A DNA stretch of 42,786 nt from Syntrophomonadaceae bacterium. Its GTDB lineage: Bacteria > Bacillota > Syntrophomonadia > Syntrophomonadales > Syntrophomonadaceae. Positions 265 through 10,276 of the stretch are shown here, piece by piece. The stretch spans positions 1-42,786 of the forward strand of contig JAAYCQ010000124.1 of NCBI GenBank assembly GCA_012729715.1, read 5' to 3'. The notes beneath the pieces are model-generated. The model searched no databases, was not told the origin of the DNA, and was given only the letters and a program-made list of their open reading frames with translations. Within the stretch, counting starts at the first letter, position 1. Each line of letters opens with the position of its first letter. A program made the translations under genes and the position numbers.

Positions 265-498
265 GTAGATTTCCCGGTTTATCACGGGCTGAATTTGAGG
301 CCTTTCTTAAAGCCTTTACCCAGCCGGGTACTTTGGTATTTAGAAATAATAAATGGTTAGGCCTTAACCGAAACGGGAAGAGTTATACGGTTCATGTTCG
401 ACATGGCGGTAGTAGATGATGCTTCTCTAGTTGAAGTAGTTGCAAAAGATCTGGGGCTATCATTACAGGAGTTTAAAGATTGGTATGAGAAACGATAG
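261..498 (+). pseudogene. HicA-like toxin, apparently frameshifted
   Basis: ATG at 261 opens a 52-codon frame ending at TGA 417-419. It shows a helix (RAEFEAFLKAF), strands (GTLVFRNN, SYTVHVRHGG) and then stops. A second frame, open from about 403 to TAG 496-498, continues with DDASLVEVVAKDLGLSLQEFKDW, which looks like the C-terminal helix and tail of HicA toxins (compare the family pattern GTLxxILKQAGLSxEEF). Joined by a one-base shift near 408-416 they give about 78 residues, the usual HicA size. The usual GSH catalytic-histidine motif is not obvious. It may be a decayed toxin, a sequencing indel or a real frameshift site. Its partner is the HicB-like gene just upstream. Confidence 0.45.
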
Positions 499-523
499 TT
501 TTTGTTTCCGGGGAGGTTGGAAC

Positions 524-1462
524 ATGAACGTTCTGGTTACCGGCGGGGCCGGGTTTATAGGGAGATGGGTGGTTAAAAAACTGCTATTTGATGGACATAG
601 GGTTACGGCCCTGGATGATCTGTCCAACGGGCGGTTAATGAATATAGATGAATTCAGGGATAACCCTGATTTCTTGTTTATAGAGGGAGATATTAAGGAT
701 CGGGATACACTGGATAATGTGTTTGCCGGTGGTTTTGACCTGGTTTATCATTTGGCTGCCAGTATCAATGTGCAGGACTCGATTGATAATCCCCGTACTA
801 CCTTTGATAATGATGTAACCGGGACTTTTAATGTATTGGAGGAATGTCGGCGGCACGGTATTAAAACGGTTTTTATGTCTACCTGTATGGTTTACGAACG
901 TAGTTTGGATGAAACGGGTATTAGTGAGAAACACCCGGTGAAACCAGCTTCTCCTTATGCGGCCAGCAAGCTGTCGGGTGAGGCTTTGACTTTGTCCTAT
1001 TATTATGCTTATGGGTTGCCAACGGTGGTGGTAAGGCCGTTTAACACCTACGGGCCTTTCCAGAAGTCCTCTGGTGAGGGTGGGGTAGTAGCTATTTTTA
1101 TCCAGCATGATTTAGAGGGTAAAGACCTTAATATATATGGCAATGGTACCCAGACCCGGGATTTGCTCTATGTGGAGGACTGTGCCGATTTTGTGATTGC
1201 GGCAGGTATGGACAGCCGGGCTGATGGACAGCTGCTTAATGCCGGGTTGGGCCGGGATGTAAGTATTAATGAATTGGCTTATTTGATTTGTAAAGATAAG
1301 AAACGCATCAAGCATGTATCTCACATTCACCCTCAGAGTGAAATCCAAAAGCTGCTCTGTAATTATGAGAAGGCCCAGGCTCTCCTGGGATGGCAGCCGC
1401 AAGTAAGCCTGGAAGAGGGTATCGTCAGAACCAGGGAGTGGATAGCCGCTCTTGTTAGATAG
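524..1462 (+). CDS. NAD-dependent extended-SDR sugar-nucleotide epimerase/dehydratase
   Basis: A 312-residue extended short-chain dehydrogenase. It begins with the NAD-binding glycine motif TGGAGFIG (residues 7-14), has D37 after the second strand for the adenosine ribose, the FMSTCMVYE active-site strand, the catalytic YAASK (Tyr-x-x-x-Lys) and the C-terminal substrate loop RDLLYVEDCADFV. It should epimerise or 4,6-dehydrate a nucleotide sugar; the exact substrate cannot be read from sequence. The start is ATG 524 with GGGGAGG 9-13 bases upstream. The frame is open back to 440, but that extension is not SDR-like and overlaps the HicA-like frame. With the PseC-type aminotransferase and flagellin downstream it probably makes a sugar for flagellin modification. 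Confidence 0.88.
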   Translation: MNVLVTGGAGFIGRWVVKKLLFDGHRVTALDDLSNGRLMNIDEFRDNPDFLFIEGDIKDRDTLDNVFAGGFDLVYHLAASINVQDSIDNPRTTFDNDVTGTFNVLEECRRHGIKTVFMSTCMVYERSLDETGISEKHPVKPASPYAASKLSGEALTLSYYYAYGLPTVVVRPFNTYGPFQKSSGEGGVVAIFIQHDLEGKDLNIYGNGTQTRDLLYVEDCADFVIAAGMDSRADGQLLNAGLGRDVSINELAYLICKDKKRIKHVSHIHPQSEIQKLLCNYEKAQALLGWQPQVSLEEGIVRTREWIAALVR

Positions 1463-1998: not shown

Positions 1999-2033
1999 TT
2001 ATGGAATTATTGATGAAACCCAAGGAGAATCAT

Positions 2034-3206
2034 ATGCATGAGTTTATTCCTTATGGCAGGCAAAATATAGATGAAGAGGATATAAAAGCGGTTATAGAGG
2101 CTTTGTGTTCTGACTGGATTACTCAGGGGCCGCGGGTGGAAGAATTTGAGGCCCGCGTGGCGGAGTACTGTGGGGCACAGTATGGCGTAGCTTTTAATAG
2201 CGGTACTTCAGCTCTACATGCGGCCATGTTCGCAGCGGGAATCGAATCCGGGGATGAGGTGATTACCACCCCCCTTACCTTTGTAGCTACAGCCAACGCA
2301 GCTCTTTATGTAGGAGCCCGACCCGTTTTTGTAGATATTGATAAGAATACCTACTGTATAAATATAGAAGGAGTAGAGGAAGCCATTACCCCTCGAACCC
2401 GGGCTATTGTGCCGGTAGATTATGCCGGCTATCCGATTGAAATGAAGCAAATTCGGGAGATTGCCGATAAACACAACTTAGTAGTAATCGAGGATGCCGC
2501 CCATGCTTTGGGAGCAGCACGAGAGGGAGCAAAAGTTGGCACTCAGGCAGATATGACCATGTTTAGTTTCCATCCGGTCAAGCATATCACTACCGGGGAA
2601 GGTGGTATGATTGTTTGCAATAGTCTAGATTATTACCGGCGCTTAAAACTCTTCCGCAGCCATGGCATCACTAAAGACTCCGGGTATTTGGAGGCCAATG
2701 ATGGCCCCTGGTATTATGAAATGCAGGAACTGGGATATAATTTCCGCATTACCGATATCCAGTGCGCATTGGGAATTTCCCAGATTAACAAGCTAGGAAA
2801 ATACATCAAGGAGCGCAACAGCCTGGCAAATAAATATGACCAGGCATTCAATAATGTAAGCTGGTTGCAGACTCCGCCGACACCATCTTCTGGAAGTAGT
2901 CACGCTTATCATCTTTATCCCTTGCTGCTGGCGGAACCGGTTAACCGTACAGAGTTTTTCACCTATCTCAGGCAGCATAATATCGGTGTTCAGGTACATT
3001 ACATTCCCGTACACCTGCAGCCCTATTACCGTCGTCGTTTTGGCTATAAACCAGGCGACTTTCCGAAAGCCGCGAATTTTTATGCCAGTGAAATCAGCCT
3101 CCCCTTATTTCCAGGTTTAACTCAGGAGCAGCAGGAATATGTAATTAAAACGGTAAAAAATTTCGGTGAAGGCCGCAGAAATGTTAAAGGTCTTGCAGGC
3201 GAATAA
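2034..3206 (+). CDS. pseC: PseC-type PLP-dependent sugar aminotransferase (DegT/DnrJ/EryC1 family)
   Basis: A 390-residue DegT/DnrJ/EryC1/StrS aminotransferase. Typical pieces are IPYGRQNIDEEDIKAV at the N terminus, SDWITQGPRVEEFE, FNSGTSALHAA, the PLP-stacking VIEDAAHALGA, and FSFHPVKHITTGEGG containing the PLP-binding lysine. This combination matches PseC, which aminates a UDP-4-keto-6-deoxy-amino sugar in pseudaminic acid synthesis. I place the start at ATG 2034, six bases after AAGGAG, rather than ATG 2001, which directly abuts the toxin stop. No PseF/G/H/I genes are visible here, so the complete pathway must lie elsewhere or the product is a simpler amino sugar. Its position directly before the flagellin supports a role in flagellin glycosylation. 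Confidence 0.85.
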   Translation: MHEFIPYGRQNIDEEDIKAVIEALCSDWITQGPRVEEFEARVAEYCGAQYGVAFNSGTSALHAAMFAAGIESGDEVITTPLTFVATANAALYVGARPVFVDIDKNTYCINIEGVEEAITPRTRAIVPVDYAGYPIEMKQIREIADKHNLVVIEDAAHALGAAREGAKVGTQADMTMFSFHPVKHITTGEGGMIVCNSLDYYRRLKLFRSHGITKDSGYLEANDGPWYYEMQELGYNFRITDIQCALGISQINKLGKYIKERNSLANKYDQAFNNVSWLQTPPTPSSGSSHAYHLYPLLLAEPVNRTEFFTYLRQHNIGVQVHYIPVHLQPYYRRRFGYKPGDFPKAANFYASEISLPLFPGLTQEQQEYVIKTVKNFGEGRRNVKGLAGE

Positions 3207-3284: not shown

Positions 3285-6200
3285 ATGATTATAAACCATA
3301 ATCTCTCTTCGCTTTTTACATACAACTCCCTCAAGCGTAGCGTAAAGGCTAGCGAAAATTTACTGGAAAAAATCTCTTCCGGCATGCGCATCAACCGGGC
3401 GGCGGATGATGCGGCGGGGTTGGCTATATCAGAGAAGATGCGCGGCCAAATTCGGGGGCTTTCTCGGGCAGTACAAAACGTGCAGGATGGGATTTCTCTG
3501 ATCCAGACCGCAGAAGGTGCCCTGAACCAGAGCCATGCGGTATTGCAGCGTATGAGGGAGTTGTCGGTAAAAGCTGCCAGTGACAATCTAACCTCGGGTG
3601 ACCGGCAGGAAATTCAAAAAGAAATTGAACAATGCAAAGAACAGCTGGATAACATAGCTTTAAATACTGAATTTAACGGTAAGAAGTTGCTGGATGGTAC
3701 TGCTTCGGTACTTGCCAGCAGCAGTGACCGTCGGGTGCAGGTCAATGTAAATGGCAGTCTGCTGTCCCGTAACCAATTTGGGGATATAGAGGCAGCTGAA
3801 GGCAACTATCGCCTGAATATTAAGGCTACTGCAGGTAAGGGACAGGTGCTGGGCAGTAATGCCTTAAGCAGCATGAACGATACCTTATCAGGGAGTATTA
3901 ATGTTACCAATATCCGTGGCGAATATTCGGGTATTACCGATTTTAGGAGCCGGGGATTAATGGAAGGTTCTTATCGCATTTCTACCCGCGAGACTCCTTT
4001 CGGGGGCATTACCTATTTGCAAAATAATGGTATGGAGAGCGCCAACCCCCTGGCCGATCTGGGCATAACCTCTGTTTCCACTTCTCCTAACCCTAATATT
4101 ATGCCTTATGGAGAATACAACATTGATATTGCCGACCAGGTGCCTTTTATGGCCCAGTTTGCGGACTTTGCTGATCCGACTACACCGGATATTGTCACCG
4201 GGGTAAATGCAACCGGGAGAAGTAACATTGATGTATCTATGGATATAACTGCAGGGCTGGGGGCCAGCGATGCTCAGAGCAGTCAGCTATGGGGTGATTT
4301 AACTGGCCCGGGCAGTGCTACTATGGTGACCCGGGCTAACTATGATATTAATATGAATACCCATTTTCAAGTGGTGGCCAGTGATACCCGTGATTTGCTG
4401 GCCAACAATGTTAACGCTGTTACCTATTACCGTTCAGAGGCTGGCAGTACAGTTGATCTTAATCTTACCTACCGGGCTCAGGCCGGGGAACAGGTGGTGG
4501 GCCATACCACCTATATCACTGCTTCGGGGGCTGAGATTACTCTACAGGATCATGATGATCCCTTGAAAAAAGTTACGGTAGCGGTAGGAGATATGACTGT
4601 TGATGAGGTGGCTGCGGCTTTAGAAAATGCCATCAATGCTCTCGAAGGTGGAAGCTATGCCGAATTAAATTTCACTGCAGTCGATGCCGGGGGTGGGCAA
4701 CACCGGATTGATGTTAGCAATAGTTCGGGATTAAGCATAGATATTATTGATAGTATTGGCAATTCCGGGACAGAGCTAGGAATTACTACCGGGCCAGGTG
4801 GTTTGGCAGATACGGGAACCATTACCGGAACTGCCCGGGATTTCAACCGGGAAATCAGCTTTAATGTTGGGGGTCAGACCCTGAACGATATCGCCGCTAC
4901 CATGGATACGGCCCTGGCTAGCTATAATATAGATGTGACTTCAGTAGATTTAGGAGCAGGTTTAAGCCGGCTGCAGTTTACCAATAACGGAGTACCGCGG
5001 CATATCTTTACTATAGATTACGATGCAGCAGCTACTTCTCTAGAAACAGAATTAAACATAGGTGGAATTACGGTTAATCCTGGCGGAGGTTCGGCTTTAT
5101 CCCACCGGGTGTACAATAATCACACTATAACAGTTAATGTAGGTGACCGGCATCTGGATCAAATCAACAGCCAGTTGAATACGGCTATGCAGAATGCTAT
5201 GGCACTGGATGATCTGGCAGCCAACAATGGGGTTAATCCTTTTTCTATGCACGACAACGGAGATGGCACCCGCAGCCTGTGGGTTGATAATACTGGTGCC
5301 AGTAACACCCTGTACGATTTGAGGATTGATGATAATGTTAATACCACGGCTTCCGAGTTGGGCCTGGATAATCTCCTAATAATCCGGGGAGCTAGCGACC
5401 ACAGCGGAACCGGGGTAGATTTCAACCGCAATCTGGGCACTATTGCTGCGGGTTCTAATATTGAGCAATGTTTGGCCACGGTACAAGGCTGGGGGTTCAA
5501 CCATAGCGCTAACTGGAGTAATTTGGCTAATACGCCGGGTTACGATGGTTCCCACCATAACGGCCAGTTTACCATTAGCAGTACCGAGACCGGCCCATTG
5601 CGGCGGGAAGTCATCTTTCGGGACAGCGCCGGCAAGGATCAGCTTTTTGGTGCCGGGGGTGATGTTTCTCTGGCTCCGGGTGGCAGTATAAGTACCCAAA
5701 CCTGGCAGGCTCGCGACCGGGTGCAGGTGAGGACTTCGTATACCGGAGTAGATAATAATGGGACTTTTTATGGCCTGCAGAGCCGGACTGACTGGTGGTG
5801 GGAGGGGGATGACGAGACTGCCAATCCTTTAGTAGGTTCAGGTGTATTGCCTTTTAGCTCCATTTACATCCCGGATAATGTTGATAATGGGGTAGAACTG
5901 GGTGGTTCCTGGTGCATGTTTACCCAGGCTCGGGGTGGAGCCAACCATGACCGCATAGATATTGAGACTATCGATGGCAATACCGGGGCTACTTTTGTTC
6001 CTACCGGTGGCCTGCATTTTAATGACGGGGTACTGGACAACAATGATACTGTGCTCATGCCGCAGCTAATTCGTACCGGAGCCGGAACTTTTGCTGTAGT
6101 CAACCATGATATAGATTTCGGACAGATTGCCACCCAGGCTAATGCTGTCATATATAGCGAACGCGGTGGCGCTGGAGGTTTTAATCATTACGCTCACGCG

Positions 6201-8489
6201 GCTTATGGTAATGATACTACTTATTATTTCGCCAATGGCGGAGACCCGGGTGACTATTTGCAGAATATAAGGGTATGGCGGCAGGAGGATGATAATGCTT
6301 CCTTACTTTTTACGGTGCTGACTCCGGGACAGCCTCCCATCGTACAGGTAGAAGGCAAGGGTTACAATCGTGATGGCACTGCCAATGACTTTGGACCGCT
6401 TACCATTGCTTTGACCGGCGGTCCCATCACCATTGGCTGTATTCAATTTGATGCACTGCAGGTAGGTGGAAATCTTGGCGTAAACGATAAATTTGTTATA
6501 AATGTAGCTGCCCGGGCAGGTGGAGGCTATCATGATGGTCCCCCGGTTCACTCCGATGCCAACATAGCTGTTTCCGGTAATCCCTGGACCGTAGGCGGGA
6601 GCACCATGGAATATCGATTTAATGAAAATGCGGAAAACGGCAAGGATTTTAACCTTCTGGGCTATTTTGTCCACCCCCTTAATGGCGGGGATAATAGTGT
6701 CGGAGTATGGACTGGTAGCTTGCTTTTGGAGGGTGTGGCAGCGGGAGGATTTGCTGCGGGCAATGGGGTAGGTTCTAATAATGTACACCTGGAGATAAAC
6801 TACAATGGCACTACTGACCACCGGGCCTCGGCCTTGCTTACTGGCTATTATTTTAAGGATATGCAACAGGGAGAAGCAATTACCCATTTTTTATCGGAAA
6901 CTGAATACCAGGCAGGAGAAAAGCAGAACGCAGCGGTAGTTTTTGAGGTGCTGGATATTACAGGAGGGCAGGTCATTTTGCGGGGTCAGGCTCATATTTA
7001 TGACCAGGACGGAAATTACCGCTATGCGTTTGATGACTATATAGCCCTGGGTGGGAACAATAGTAGTATTACCTTCTTTAATGATAGCGGTGCCGATGGC
7101 TTAAGCTTCAGTCAGTTTAATTTTGCTGATATTTCCCGCCTGCGGGTCGGGGATCGTTTTTCCCTGTTTCTATCTGCAGAGGGCGAACCTGCCGACAGCG
7201 ATGCCGATGAAATATATTTATTCAGCAGCGCCGACCGGCGGGATATTTATCCTCATGCCTGGCGCTTTCATGATGGGGTATTGGATCATCAGAATACCAC
7301 CCTCAGGACTTATCAGGTGAATTATGATACAGGTGACGTACATGAGGGGATAATGGATTTTACCATTGCTGATTTTCATGGTGGTACTGCTCTTGGATTA
7401 TTAGATAGCCTGCATACTCCAAGGGTAATCGATGAAGCGGTGCAGTTTGAGTCAGTTTTCCAGAAGAGTATTAACACAGCTACCGCTCATCATTATACTA
7501 AACTCAAAGATATTGCCCAGTTCTGGACCCCGGAAGGACGATTTTTATTGGAGCCGCCCCAGGAGTTGTTACTACAAAACGGGGATAAGCAAGTTAAGAT
7601 TATGCTCTATGGCGAAGACGAGATTGTAGATGTATTAGATCGCATTAACCAGGCTATTTATGATACTCTGGGTCAGGGTAAACTGGTGGGAGAGAAAAAC
7701 CGTTATAAGTTTGTTTCCTTTGTGGATAGCCCCTCCGATACCAGTAATCTAGAGCAACTGGAAGGGGGACTGGTAGTGCGCAGCGCAGTTTCCGGCAGCG
7801 GGGGCGAGTTTAATTTTATTGGTCCGGAGCCGCTCTTAAATGCCCTGGGGATTTCTGTACTGAGGAATGCCAGTAATAATGAATTGGATATTGAAGTGCG
7901 TGATGCGGTCAGTGGCAAGTTAATTAATAGTTTCCAGGCTCAATCGGACCAGAACATAGTGGGGGCCTTAAACAGCAACGTCGAATTGCGGATTGACTCC
8001 AGCCTGGGCCTGGAGGCTTCCTATGATGAGGCTGCTGAGGATTTCACCTGGCAGGGGGAAGAAAATATTCAGGTGACTGTACAACTGGTGGATAATGCTA
8101 CTGTATTGCAGATGGGGGCTAATCGGGGCCAGGTACAATGGCTGGACTTAATGGATGCCAGTTCCCAGGCCCTGGGGGTAGACGAAATCCTGGTAGTTAC
8201 CCGGGCTCATGCTGCGCAGGCCATGGCGGCACTGGATCGGGCTATTGCCAAGGTATCATCACAGCGTTCTTCACTGGGTGCCATGCAGAACCGTCTGGAC
8301 CATAGTATGAATAACCTGGCCGTAGCTCATGAAAATCTTACTGCTTCAGAATCCCGCATTCGGGATGCCGATATGGCCAAAAACTTGAGTGCCTATGTGC
8401 AGCAGGGCATTATAAGTGAGGCCGCTACAGCCATGCTGGCCCAGTCGAATCAAAAACCACAACTGGTAATGCAGTTACTGGGAAAATAA
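3285..8489 (+). CDS. fliC: Giant flagellin (1734 residues)
   Basis: Flagellar filament subunit with normal conserved ends and a hugely enlarged middle. Residues 1-140 carry the D0/D1 helices (LEKISSGMRINRAADDAAGLAISEKMR, LSRAVQNVQDGISLIQTAEGAL, NTEFNGKKLLDG). Residues from about 1633 to 1734 carry the matching C-terminal D1/D0 (SSLGAMQNRLDH, NLTASESRIRDADMA, ending QLLGK). About 1,490 residues between them form D2/D3-type surface domains, against none to 300 in ordinary flagellins. Flagellin_IN-like repeats begin near residues 428, 523 and 613, and an F-x-DGVLD-xxxT motif recurs near 913 and 1329. The start is ATG 3285 after AAGGAGAAAG. Cysteines, rare in flagellins, occur at 117, 729, 877 and 1052. 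The frame is intact throughout, so it appears functional. No zinc-protease HExxH was seen in the insert. Confidence 0.96.
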   Translation: MIINHNLSSLFTYNSLKRSVKASENLLEKISSGMRINRAADDAAGLAISEKMRGQIRGLSRAVQNVQDGISLIQTAEGALNQSHAVLQRMRELSVKAASDNLTSGDRQEIQKEIEQCKEQLDNIALNTEFNGKKLLDGTASVLASSSDRRVQVNVNGSLLSRNQFGDIEAAEGNYRLNIKATAGKGQVLGSNALSSMNDTLSGSINVTNIRGEYSGITDFRSRGLMEGSYRISTRETPFGGITYLQNNGMESANPLADLGITSVSTSPNPNIMPYGEYNIDIADQVPFMAQFADFADPTTPDIVTGVNATGRSNIDVSMDITAGLGASDAQSSQLWGDLTGPGSATMVTRANYDINMNTHFQVVASDTRDLLANNVNAVTYYRSEAGSTVDLNLTYRAQAGEQVVGHTTYITASGAEITLQDHDDPLKKVTVAVGDMTVDEVAAALENAINALEGGSYAELNFTAVDAGGGQHRIDVSNSSGLSIDIIDSIGNSGTELGITTGPGGLADTGTITGTARDFNREISFNVGGQTLNDIAATMDTALASYNIDVTSVDLGAGLSRLQFTNNGVPRHIFTIDYDAAATSLETELNIGGITVNPGGGSALSHRVYNNHTITVNVGDRHLDQINSQLNTAMQNAMALDDLAANNGVNPFSMHDNGDGTRSLWVDNTGASNTLYDLRIDDNVNTTASELGLDNLLIIRGASDHSGTGVDFNRNLGTIAAGSNIEQCLATVQGWGFNHSANWSNLANTPGYDGSHHNGQFTISSTETGPLRREVIFRDSAGKDQLFGAGGDVSLAPGGSISTQTWQARDRVQVRTSYTGVDNNGTFYGLQSRTDWWWEGDDETANPLVGSGVLPFSSIYIPDNVDNGVELGGSWCMFTQARGGANHDRIDIETIDGNTGATFVPTGGLHFNDGVLDNNDTVLMPQLIRTGAGTFAVVNHDIDFGQIATQANAVIYSERGGAGGFNHYAHAAYGNDTTYYFANGGDPGDYLQNIRVWRQEDDNASLLFTVLTPGQPPIVQVEGKGYNRDGTANDFGPLTIALTGGPITIGCIQFDALQVGGNLGVNDKFVINVAARAGGGYHDGPPVHSDANIAVSGNPWTVGGSTMEYRFNENAENGKDFNLLGYFVHPLNGGDNSVGVWTGSLLLEGVAAGGFAAGNGVGSNNVHLEINYNGTTDHRASALLTGYYFKDMQQGEAITHFLSETEYQAGEKQNAAVVFEVLDITGGQVILRGQAHIYDQDGNYRYAFDDYIALGGNNSSITFFNDSGADGLSFSQFNFADISRLRVGDRFSLFLSAEGEPADSDADEIYLFSSADRRDIYPHAWRFHDGVLDHQNTTLRTYQVNYDTGDVHEGIMDFTIADFHGGTALGLLDSLHTPRVIDEAVQFESVFQKSINTATAHHYTKLKDIAQFWTPEGRFLLEPPQELLLQNGDKQVKIMLYGEDEIVDVLDRINQAIYDTLGQGKLVGEKNRYKFVSFVDSPSDTSNLEQLEGGLVVRSAVSGSGGEFNFIGPEPLLNALGISVLRNASNNELDIEVRDAVSGKLINSFQAQSDQNIVGALNSNVELRIDSSLGLEASYDEAAEDFTWQGEENIQVTVQLVDNATVLQMGANRGQVQWLDLMDASSQALGVDEILVVTRAHAAQAMAALDRAIAKVSSQRSSLGAMQNRLDHSMNNLAVAHENLTASESRIRDADMAKNLSAYVQQGIISEAATAMLAQSNQKPQLVMQLLGK

Positions 8490-8528: not shown

Positions 8529-8630
8529 TCCCCTTGCGCAGAAATAAAAAACAACCTTTCAAAACTAGCAGGAATATGTAATCTGGGTAGCGAATGATTA
8601 AAGATGGAATGTTTTAGGGGGTGTATTTAG

Positions 8631-8816
8631 ATGGAAATTGGCGCCCTGGCCAGTTTAGCCACCCTAATGCAGGCCCAGAGTCTGCAGCAGGCAGTCAGTA
8701 CCAGTGTAATGAAGATGGAGATGGATTCGGCCAAGCAATCCGCTCAGGCTTTAATCGAGATGATGGAAAAGTCGGCACTTCCCCATCTCGGCAGTCAACT
8801 GGATATAATTGCTTAA
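8631..8816 (+). CDS. YjfB-family putative motility protein
   Basis: A 61-residue protein: MEIGALASLATLMQAQSLQQAVSTSVMKMEMDSAKQSAQALIEMMEKS and a short tail. The alternating small-hydrophobic helix and the QQAVSTSVMKMAMD-type core are characteristic of the YjfB family, found near flagellin genes in Firmicutes and annotated as putative motility proteins of unknown function. AGGGGGTG lies 8-14 bases before ATG 8631. The gene lies between the flagellin and fliS, so it is probably expressed with late flagellar genes. The molecular role is unknown. Confidence 0.7.
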   Translation: MEIGALASLATLMQAQSLQQAVSTSVMKMEMDSAKQSAQALIEMMEKSALPHLGSQLDIIA

Positions 8817-8846
8817 AGGATCAAAATGTAAATACGAGGGGAAATT

Positions 8847-9215
8847 ATGGAGAGCTTGATTACCTTATCTCGAGATATGGTTGAATTGAGTAATACTATC
8901 AAAGAAGGTCTGGATCATCTGGATAAAAGATTGGCAGATGGGCATTTGGAAGATAGCTATTATCTGTTCCAGGATATTATACAGGCATTTTATTCGGTTA
9001 CCCGGGCCATGGAATCTATACAATCCAGCATAGAGATTGAAACAGTAGTCCAGGCGGCAGATAAATTACTAAATGCGTTTGAAAAGTTATCAATTTCCTA
9101 TGAGGATCAAAAACTAAACCAGGCCCGTATGGATTTACAACTCATACTATCACCTGCCTTCTCCGCCTGGAGCAACGAATTACATAAATGTTTGCAACCT
9201 ATCATGGAATCCTAA
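8847..9215 (+). CDS. Uncharacterised helical protein in flagellar cluster
   Basis: A 122-residue protein with no motif I recognise. It is predicted all-helical from heptad-like hydrophobic spacing (LITLSRDMVELSNTIKEGLDHLDKRL, then LFQDIIQAFYSVTRAMESIQSSI and ARMDLQLILSPAFSAWSNEL), with no signal peptide or membrane segment. A good GAGGGG site precedes ATG 8847, and it follows the YjfB-like gene by 30 bases, so the two probably share a transcript. Size and helicity resemble flagellar export chaperones (FliT/FlgN/FliS class), but that is inference only. A terminator-like hairpin follows at 9240. Confidence 0.6.
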   Translation: MESLITLSRDMVELSNTIKEGLDHLDKRLADGHLEDSYYLFQDIIQAFYSVTRAMESIQSSIEIETVVQAADKLLNAFEKLSISYEDQKLNQARMDLQLILSPAFSAWSNELHKCLQPIMES

Positions 9216-9331: not shown

Positions 9332-9814
9332 TTGAACCTTAATGCACAGGCATATGATCAATATAAAAGATCCAGTGTGGAAACAGCTCCGGAAAAGCTT
9401 ATAACTATGCTTTATGAGGGTTTGTTGAAAAACATTAAACAGGCTAGGAAATTTATTGAAGATAAAGATATAAACCAGGCGCACCGGGAAATTATTAATG
9501 GGCAGGAAATTCTGGTGGAATTAATGGCCAGTCTTAATATGGATTATGAAATTTCCAAGCCCATGTTTTTACTCTATGAATATCTACATCACCAAATGGT
9601 TCAGGCTAATGTGAAAAAGGATGCACAAATATTGAACGAGGTAGAAAACTTTGTGATTGAATTACGTGATACCTGGCAGGAAGCGATTATAAAAAGCAAA
9701 AGTTCACCCCCGGCAGAGATAAGTACCGGTAATACCACAGGGGGAGTAAGCAATGCGGTAGTGGGAGCAAGCGCAGGTAATAATACGGTTTCTCATATTA
9801 ACATCAAGGGCTAA
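9332..9814 (+). CDS. fliS: Flagellar export chaperone FliS
   Basis: A 160-residue protein with the FliS core: AYDQYKRSSVETAPEKLITMLYEGLLKNIKQA, followed by NQAHREIINGQEILVELMASLNMDYEISKPMFLLYEYL. FliS binds the C-terminal D0 helix of flagellin in the cytosol, prevents premature polymerisation and delivers it to the FlhA export gate. With a 1734-residue client next door, this chaperone must cope with an exceptional load. The tail beyond about residue 125 (rich in Gly, Ser, Thr, Asn) is a disordered extension longer than usual FliS (about 125-130 residues). The start is TTG 9332 behind GAGGAG. FliD, the usual upstream neighbour, is absent here. Confidence 0.93.
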   Translation: MNLNAQAYDQYKRSSVETAPEKLITMLYEGLLKNIKQARKFIEDKDINQAHREIINGQEILVELMASLNMDYEISKPMFLLYEYLHHQMVQANVKKDAQILNEVENFVIELRDTWQEAIIKSKSSPPAEISTGNTTGGVSNAVVGASAGNNTVSHINIKG

Positions 9815-9839: not shown

Positions 9840-9866
9840 TAAAGGATAATATTAAAATATTGATAA
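9840..9866 (+). promoter_or_regulatory. Putative sigma-D promoter for flaG
   Basis: TAAA at 9840-9843, exactly 15 bases, then ATTGATAA at 9859-9866, matching the GATAA half of the sigma-28 -10 element. It lies 35 bases before the flaG start. The sequence also holds the inverted repeat GATAATAT/ATATTATC (9845-9852, 9866-9873), so an AT-rich hairpin is an alternative reading. Confidence 0.35.
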
Positions 9867-9901
9867 TATTATCACCAAATTTTATGCAGGGAGGCGGAAA
9901 T

Positions 9902-10276
9902 ATGCGGGTTGATGGGCAAGGGATGGCAATTAATACTCCCGCAGTAGTTGAGGCAGGTCGGAGTACGGTTCGGGAAGAAATATTACCCGATCAGCAAAAA
10001 AACAGGGTAGGGGTGGAAGAATTGGTGGCTTCCAGGGCAAGCAGGGAAGAAGTCCACCAGGCTGTTGAAGTTGCCAATGATATTATGAATCTATCTAATT
10101 TCCACCTGGAATTTCAACTTCACGAAGACAGTGGACGTTTCCAGGTAAGGGTGATAGATAATCAGAGCAAAGAAACCATTAAAGAAATACCACCCGATTA
10201 CATGCTGGATTTAAGTGCTCGTTTAAGGGAAATGATTAATCAGGCACTGGGATTACTGGTGGACGAATTGGTGTAG
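9902..10276 (+). CDS. flaG: FlaG family flagellar protein
   Basis: A 124-residue protein with a variable N-terminal half and the conserved FlaG C-terminal domain: LEFQLHEDSGRFQVRVIDNQSKETIKEIPPDYMLDLSARLREM. FlaG proteins affect filament length or cap-region assembly in several flagellated bacteria, but their mechanism is not settled. ATG 9902 is chosen because GGGAGGCGG lies 5-13 bases upstream; the open frame extends to 9860 without a ribosome site. It follows fliS, whereas flaG-fliD-fliS is the commoner order, so fliD has moved or been lost from this locus. Confidence 0.9.
   Translation: MRVDGQGMAINTPAVVEAGRSTVREEILPDQQKNRVGVEELVASRASREEVHQAVEVANDIMNLSNFHLEFQLHEDSGRFQVRVIDNQSKETIKEIPPDYMLDLSARLREMINQALGLLVDELV

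Follow-up and report, generated by a model that had tools for sequence, protein, structure and literature searches.

A predicted giant, modular second flagellin in a Syntrophomonadaceae genome, with relatives in Synergistota

Flagellins of more than 1,000 aa make thick filaments, and Synergistetes (Aminomonas paucivorans) and Firmicutes have been named among their carriers (Thomson et al., 2018, PMC6248924). The proteins studied in that work were the sole flagellin of their species, measured 1,020 and 1,190 aa, and had grown by duplication of the DE region. In filaments with an outer-domain sheath, large outer domains are in mutual contact on the surface, and such sheaths alter filament waveform and motility (PMC8931119). 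Flagellin ends can also enclose an enzyme, as in flagellinolysin (NF033876), which has an internal HExxH metalloprotease domain.

The protein described here has 1,734 aa and a single large internal region, which places it in the class of giant flagellins above 1,000 aa. Like the giants of Thomson et al. (2018), it combines standard D0/D1 ends with a very large middle, but it differs from the proteins studied there in that a second flagellin is present, the modules are different and the partner proteins are enlarged. Judged from its sequence, it is a real, conserved and modular second flagellin, and a variant of the published giants rather than a separate category.

The giant flagellin gene and its surroundings

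The window, i.e., the whole stretch of 42,786 nucleotides that was analysed, is an entire contig (C87) of a 2.67 Mb genome of 298 contigs that is 93% complete. The giant flagellin gene lies at 3285..8489 on the + strand, starts with ATG, has no internal stops and encodes a protein of 185.8 kDa with a pI of 4.55. Pfam Flagellin_N matches residues 3-139 (E 9e-44) within the N-terminal D0/D1 core (residues 1-140; 3285..3704, +), which is 58% identical to the 926-aa flagellin of the same genome (residues 1-188), and Flagellin_C matches residues 1648-1732 (E 2e-21), the C-terminal D1/D0 core (8226..8480, +). Both scores far exceed the curated cut-offs, and no other Pfam family scored above its cut-off in the protein. 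The original prediction of a 1,734-residue flagellin at these coordinates is thus borne out by the intact frame and the two Pfam ends, and the exposed middle of ~1,490 residues that it described is close to the 1,446 aa measured (residues ~141-1586). This insert is acidic, with 179 D+E against 78 K+R.

The NCBIfam models that score best are those for flagellin (270.8 bits), while FlgL reaches 88.8 bits, under the FlgL cut-off. None of the flagellin models attains its own whole-protein cut-off, owing to the insert. An enzymatic flagellin was considered and rejected, as neither Pfam nor NCBIfam gave a catalytic family for the giant. Flagellinolysin shares the flagellin ends with it but not the middle, and NF033876 scores 60.7 against a cut-off of 205, over the terminal regions only.

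A MAG of 298 contigs could in principle contain a frame produced by joining two genes, the error that the original prediction itself named as a way in which it might fail. Independent assemblies holding full-length orthologues contradict this, and we regard the chance of an artefact as practically negligible. A copy in the Syntrophomonadaceae genome G019 (SV3-B16.2) is 73.6% identical over 1,311 residues, orthologues of 1,742 aa (52% identity) and 1,815 aa (42% identity) occur in the Bacillota MAG Ch109 and in a Synergistetes MAG, and the phylum of locus L023, labelled Synergistetes, has intact frames of 1,963 and 1,966 aa on contigs of 2.57 and 2.63 Mb, its longest frame reaching 2,139 aa. 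Together these rule out both a misassembly and a chance frame. They also qualify the description of the protein as exceptionally large, which fits when textbook flagellins are the yardstick but not when its own family is (~1,600 to ~2,140 aa, Synergistota).

The gene is embedded in a locus with sugar and flagellar genes. Upstream on the + strand are an NAD-dependent sugar epimerase/dehydratase (440..1462; PF01370), whose orthologues at the same place in relatives are 83-84% identical, and, directly before the giant, pseC for the pseudaminic acid pathway transaminase (2001..3206; TIGR03588 equivalog, 511.9 bits against a cut-off of 423.5). A RelE/StbE-type toxin gene (1699-1998; TIGR02385) is found between the two. 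The giant is followed on the + strand by a YjfB-type putative motility protein of 61 aa (8631..8816; PF14070), where a longer overlapping frame at 8621-8884 is probably spurious, then by the unnamed orf122 (8847..9215), which is conserved between giant or pseC and fliS in relatives, by the flagellin export chaperone gene fliS (9332..9814; PF02561, TIGR00208) and by flaG (9860..10276; PF03646). The best sigma-D-like promoter score for the giant was 10/12, and this was equalled in 19 of 300 shuffled sequences, so that no such promoter rises above chance.

In relatives, this locus also includes a PseB-like gene. The position of pseC upstream of the giant, a PseD/Maf-like protein adjoining the main flagellin gene and an MptE-like (Maf) protein adjoining the giant in genome G097 make it likely, on genomic context, that the giant filament protein is glycosylated.

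The outer region and selection on it

The outer region contains three mutually homologous tandem modules of ~95 residues each, all on the + strand: residues 386-482 (4440..4730), whose module HMM matches the other two as well as relatives, residues 498-592 (4776..5060) and residues 605-700 (5097..5384). The HMM of the third module gives nine tandem matches at residues ~810-1510 of a Thermotogaceae protein (L024), at least seven of them strong. The modules are followed by a conserved region with a DWWWEGD motif, which belongs to no known family (residues 701-870; 5385..5894, +). Further on are a domain at residues 1158-1375 (6756..7409, +) with homologues in FlgK, FlgL and the main flagellin, a probable diverged copy of it at residues 1001-1129 (6285..6671, +; hhalign with the FlgK profile, E 4.7e-5, probability 68%), and a C-terminal outer part next to the core at residues 1398-1586 (7476..8042, +), which is homologous to the main flagellin and to a solved flagellin. 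The latter, a filament protein of 793 aa (PDB 9au6), is homologous to residues 1398-1733 of the giant (E 1e-88 overall) and to residues 373-926 of the main flagellin, and lacks a counterpart of the giant-specific middle.

In hhalign comparisons, residues 504-749 of FlgK align with FlgL 576-739 (E 2.8e-14), FliC 353-578 (E 1.5e-11) and giant 1158-1416 (E 6.6e-7). Since such pairwise E-values are poorly calibrated, the weight is carried by a specificity test that searched 943 ORFs, taken from all loci and mostly non-flagellar, with four domain HMMs. Each HMM recovers the other groups among FlgK, FlgL, FliC and the giants (e.g., FlgL was hit by the FlgK model at 1e-10, FlgK by the FliC model at 1e-13 and FliC by the giant model at 4e-8), and all assignable matches below 0.05 are axial flagellar proteins. 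At the level of sequence profiles, this shows that one homologous outer domain is common to FlgK, FlgL, the main flagellin and the giant.

Structure prediction of the outer region had been suggested along with the original prediction. Run on residues 140-1000 and 881-1734, it was confident for residues ~387-700 and low elsewhere (mean pLDDT 42.8 and 36.9). The modules are predicted to have a strand-helix-strand pattern that resembles the flagellin hook IN motif as a pattern, and Flagellin_IN (PF07196) had no match in the giant or its three relatives, even at E 1. A Foldseek search of the first model (residues 140-1000) against the PDB returned nothing at E ≤0.001; a likeness to FliD at E 0.12 was not accepted as evidence.

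The surface is usually the most variable part of a flagellin and is often described as hypervariable. Between the giants of G000 and G019, dN is 0.14-0.22 in the insert and 0.15 in the N-terminal core, and dN/dS in the insert is ~0.07-0.16 in the blocks with estimable dS, with dS near saturation. For the insert of the main flagellin, the same two genomes give a dN of 0.29. The low dN/dS and the closeness of insert and core dN indicate that purifying selection acts on the surface of the giant, with a level of constraint close to that on its own core.

The companion flagellin and the hook-junction proteins

The genome also encodes a 926-aa flagellin whose gene adjoins fliD, fliW, flgL and flgK. 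Eight Synergistota genomes, all of them giant carriers, were searched with Flagellin_N for other flagellins, and seven have a separate flagellin of ~711-915 aa. The eighth, G163, has only a contig-edge flagellin fragment beside the giant and FlgL. A smaller flagellin accompanies the giant in the present genome and in seven of eight Synergistota genomes, and the giant is therefore normally an additional flagellin. At least 20 Flagellin_N matches were counted in G090, from the phylum of L023, the highest number among the genomes searched. The main flagellins (926-936 aa in Syntrophomonadaceae, ~775 aa in Synergistota) have the D0/D1 core and the C-terminal outer region in common with the giant, but lack its residues ~240-1150, including the three tandem modules. 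The giant and the 926-aa flagellin of its own genome are 34% identical over 559 residues.

According to the original prediction, thousands of giant subunits would build the filament. On this picture, the 926-aa flagellin of the genome would be the minor component. The giant gene does lie in a flaG-fliS-hpf-secA-prfB locus, and in Bacillus the flagellar cap and chaperone genes are found near this locus. The filament of Bermanella, moreover, is made of a single giant flagellin (PMC6248924). Against such a role for the giant, it is the 926-aa gene that adjoins flgK, flgL, fliW and fliD, orthologues of the 926-aa protein are far more widespread, and S. wolfei strongly expresses one flagellin, which would correspond to the 936-aa protein, while having no giant (PMC11087674). 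We therefore find it improbable that the giant is the main filament protein. With a 926-aa flagellin encoded by the same genome, the giant may instead supply a small share of the filament, one segment of it, or subunits used under certain conditions.

Thomson et al. (2018) asked whether other flagellar parts are correspondingly large in bacteria with giant flagellins (PMC6248924). The sequences answer yes: FlgK and FlgL are large alongside the flagellin and carry a homologous domain. In the present genome FlgL has 847 and FlgK 848 aa, versus 316 and 466 aa in G024, another member of the family. Overall, genomes with large flagellins have FlgK of 834-902 aa, FlgL of 665-1,030 aa and FliD of up to 946 aa; for Synergistota the ranges are 834-872, 1,006-1,030 and ~895-946 aa, with FliD assigned by position. 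Among the 26 genomes with both frames, a flagellin above 600 aa is always paired with a FlgL above 600 aa and never otherwise, without a discordant case. These genomes are related and the Synergistota were chosen for the giant, so the pairing is a pattern that does not amount to an independent test. Nor are large FlgL proteins confined to this set, since NCBIfam includes FlgL models with 749 and 827 positions. The cap is enlarged in some relatives, with Syntrophomonadaceae FliD proteins of 893 aa (L009:8053-10734) and 762 aa (L013:7832-10120) that contain internal repeats.

We tentatively suggest that the distal flagellum of Syntrophomonadaceae and Synergistota, from FlgK and FlgL through both flagellins, might be built with one homologous outer domain. 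It would then have a continuous coat from junction to filament, with the giant as a specialised thick segment. We consider this extension possible, though doubtful.

Distribution, origin and proposed role

The giant has the alignable central region of a Synergistota-type family of giant flagellins. Over residues ~200-1310 it is 41-42% identical to three Synergistota giants and 25-35% to ten further ones. The central region was found in 3 of 54 genomes of its own family, in 2 of 398 in a sample of its own phylum and in 30 of 188 in the phylum of L023. In a Thermotogaceae MAG (L024), a frame of more than 1,640 aa is cut off by the contig end, and another contig carries a C-terminal part that matches; if the two belong together, the protein would possibly reach ~2,500 aa. 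With a match in only 1 of 103 genomes of that phylum, mis-binning is possible. A search of plasmid records with the giant matched only the flagellin ends, and no record covered 80% of it.

Within the family, the giant is flanked by pseC and orf122, in an operon whose giant-free version in relatives comprises the epimerase, in some cases pseC, orf122, fliS and flaG (whose order varies), hpf, secA, motA, motB and prfB. This syntenic giant-free operon was found in six relatives, and tblastn detected no remnant of the giant in it. The congener G008 is without the giant, while a contig edge in G049, from another genus of the family, preserves its final 463 residues, again followed by orf122, fliS and flaG (a 124-aa ORF, FliS and FlaG). 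A 16-bp perfect direct repeat has one copy inside the 3' end of pseC (3130..3145, +) and one after the giant gene (8567..8582, +), and in the giant-free relative L120 the corresponding gap contains another, partial pseC tail. Repeat and extra tail may be traces of the entry or loss of the giant, although a single short repeat proves nothing. The GC content is 48.7% for the giant, 45.0% for the window and 49% for uvrA and uvrB, so base composition was set aside as a sign of transfer.

A tree built on 1,341 columns of the central region groups the two Syntrophomonadaceae copies with Ch109 (100/99) and then with three Synergistota giants (99/99), and ten other Synergistota giants fall apart from this group. 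The tree was midpoint-rooted and has a long Thermotogaceae branch, and it is from this rooting that we infer a direction of transfer. The D0/D1 parts gave a weak tree from a short alignment; grouping all giants together is marginally rejected (p-AU 0.037), and a single clade of the Syntrophomonadaceae flagellins is not (p-AU 0.131). As far as these alignments indicate, the insert alone may have moved between lineages, rather than the whole gene.

Such an acquisition could be in decay, a real gene that is seldom or never put to use. It is missing from most relatives, and the frame of the G019 copy breaks at ~L021:3998 and goes on in another frame to a normal flagellin end, which gives frames of 1,348 and 390 aa. 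This break may be decay or an assembly error. Given that dN/dS is low along the whole gene, and that the frame is intact here and in many Synergistota, we find decay very hard to credit.

The explanation we lean towards, with moderate confidence in the whole, is that the giant belongs to a conserved family which is commonest in Synergistota, that it is a second flagellin forming a thick outer layer along the whole filament or a part of it, and that its outer region came from a Synergistota-type source. The giant would be exported unfolded like any flagellin, guarded by FliS, and would join the filament via D0/D1, where it would either co-assemble with the 926-aa flagellin or replace it in part of the filament. 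Its outer modules would form a radial layer, packed among themselves and against the homologous domains that neighbouring axial proteins carry. The outcome would be a thick, stiff outer layer, probably decorated with a pseudaminic-type sugar. The sheath filaments described above offer a possible functional parallel. The benefit would probably be mechanical, such as movement in dense anaerobic aggregates. The outer region probably reached Syntrophomonadaceae by horizontal transfer from Synergistota or from a common unsampled source.

The main rival of such packing into a coat is a flagellin that binds partner cells: a minor subunit, perhaps close to the tip or in patches, whose outer domain attaches to methanogens or other cells in syntrophic aggregates. 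Relatives within Syntrophomonadaceae do make their living in partnership with other cells, a division of labour would call for a second flagellin, and recombinant flagellin of the syntroph Pelotomaculum, tested as subunits, bound only its methanogen partners (reviewed in PMC11224092). However, Synergistota and other MAGs, with different partners, conserve this outer region as well, most Syntrophomonadaceae relatives lack the giant, and no adhesin or lectin family was found in it. We therefore judge partner binding to be rather unlikely. The conservation across phyla, along with the homologues of the outer domain in FlgK, FlgL and the main flagellin, favours packing contacts over a fast-changing ligand-binding or immune surface.

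The giant is thus a case of a flagellin surface that is conserved between phyla, and its tandem modules represent a modular route for flagellin growth. How a thick filament is joined to the hook becomes a testable question in cultured Synergistota. If a continuous coat does extend from the junction to the filament, the thickness of the flagellum would evolve as a coordinated property of several proteins and not of the flagellin alone.
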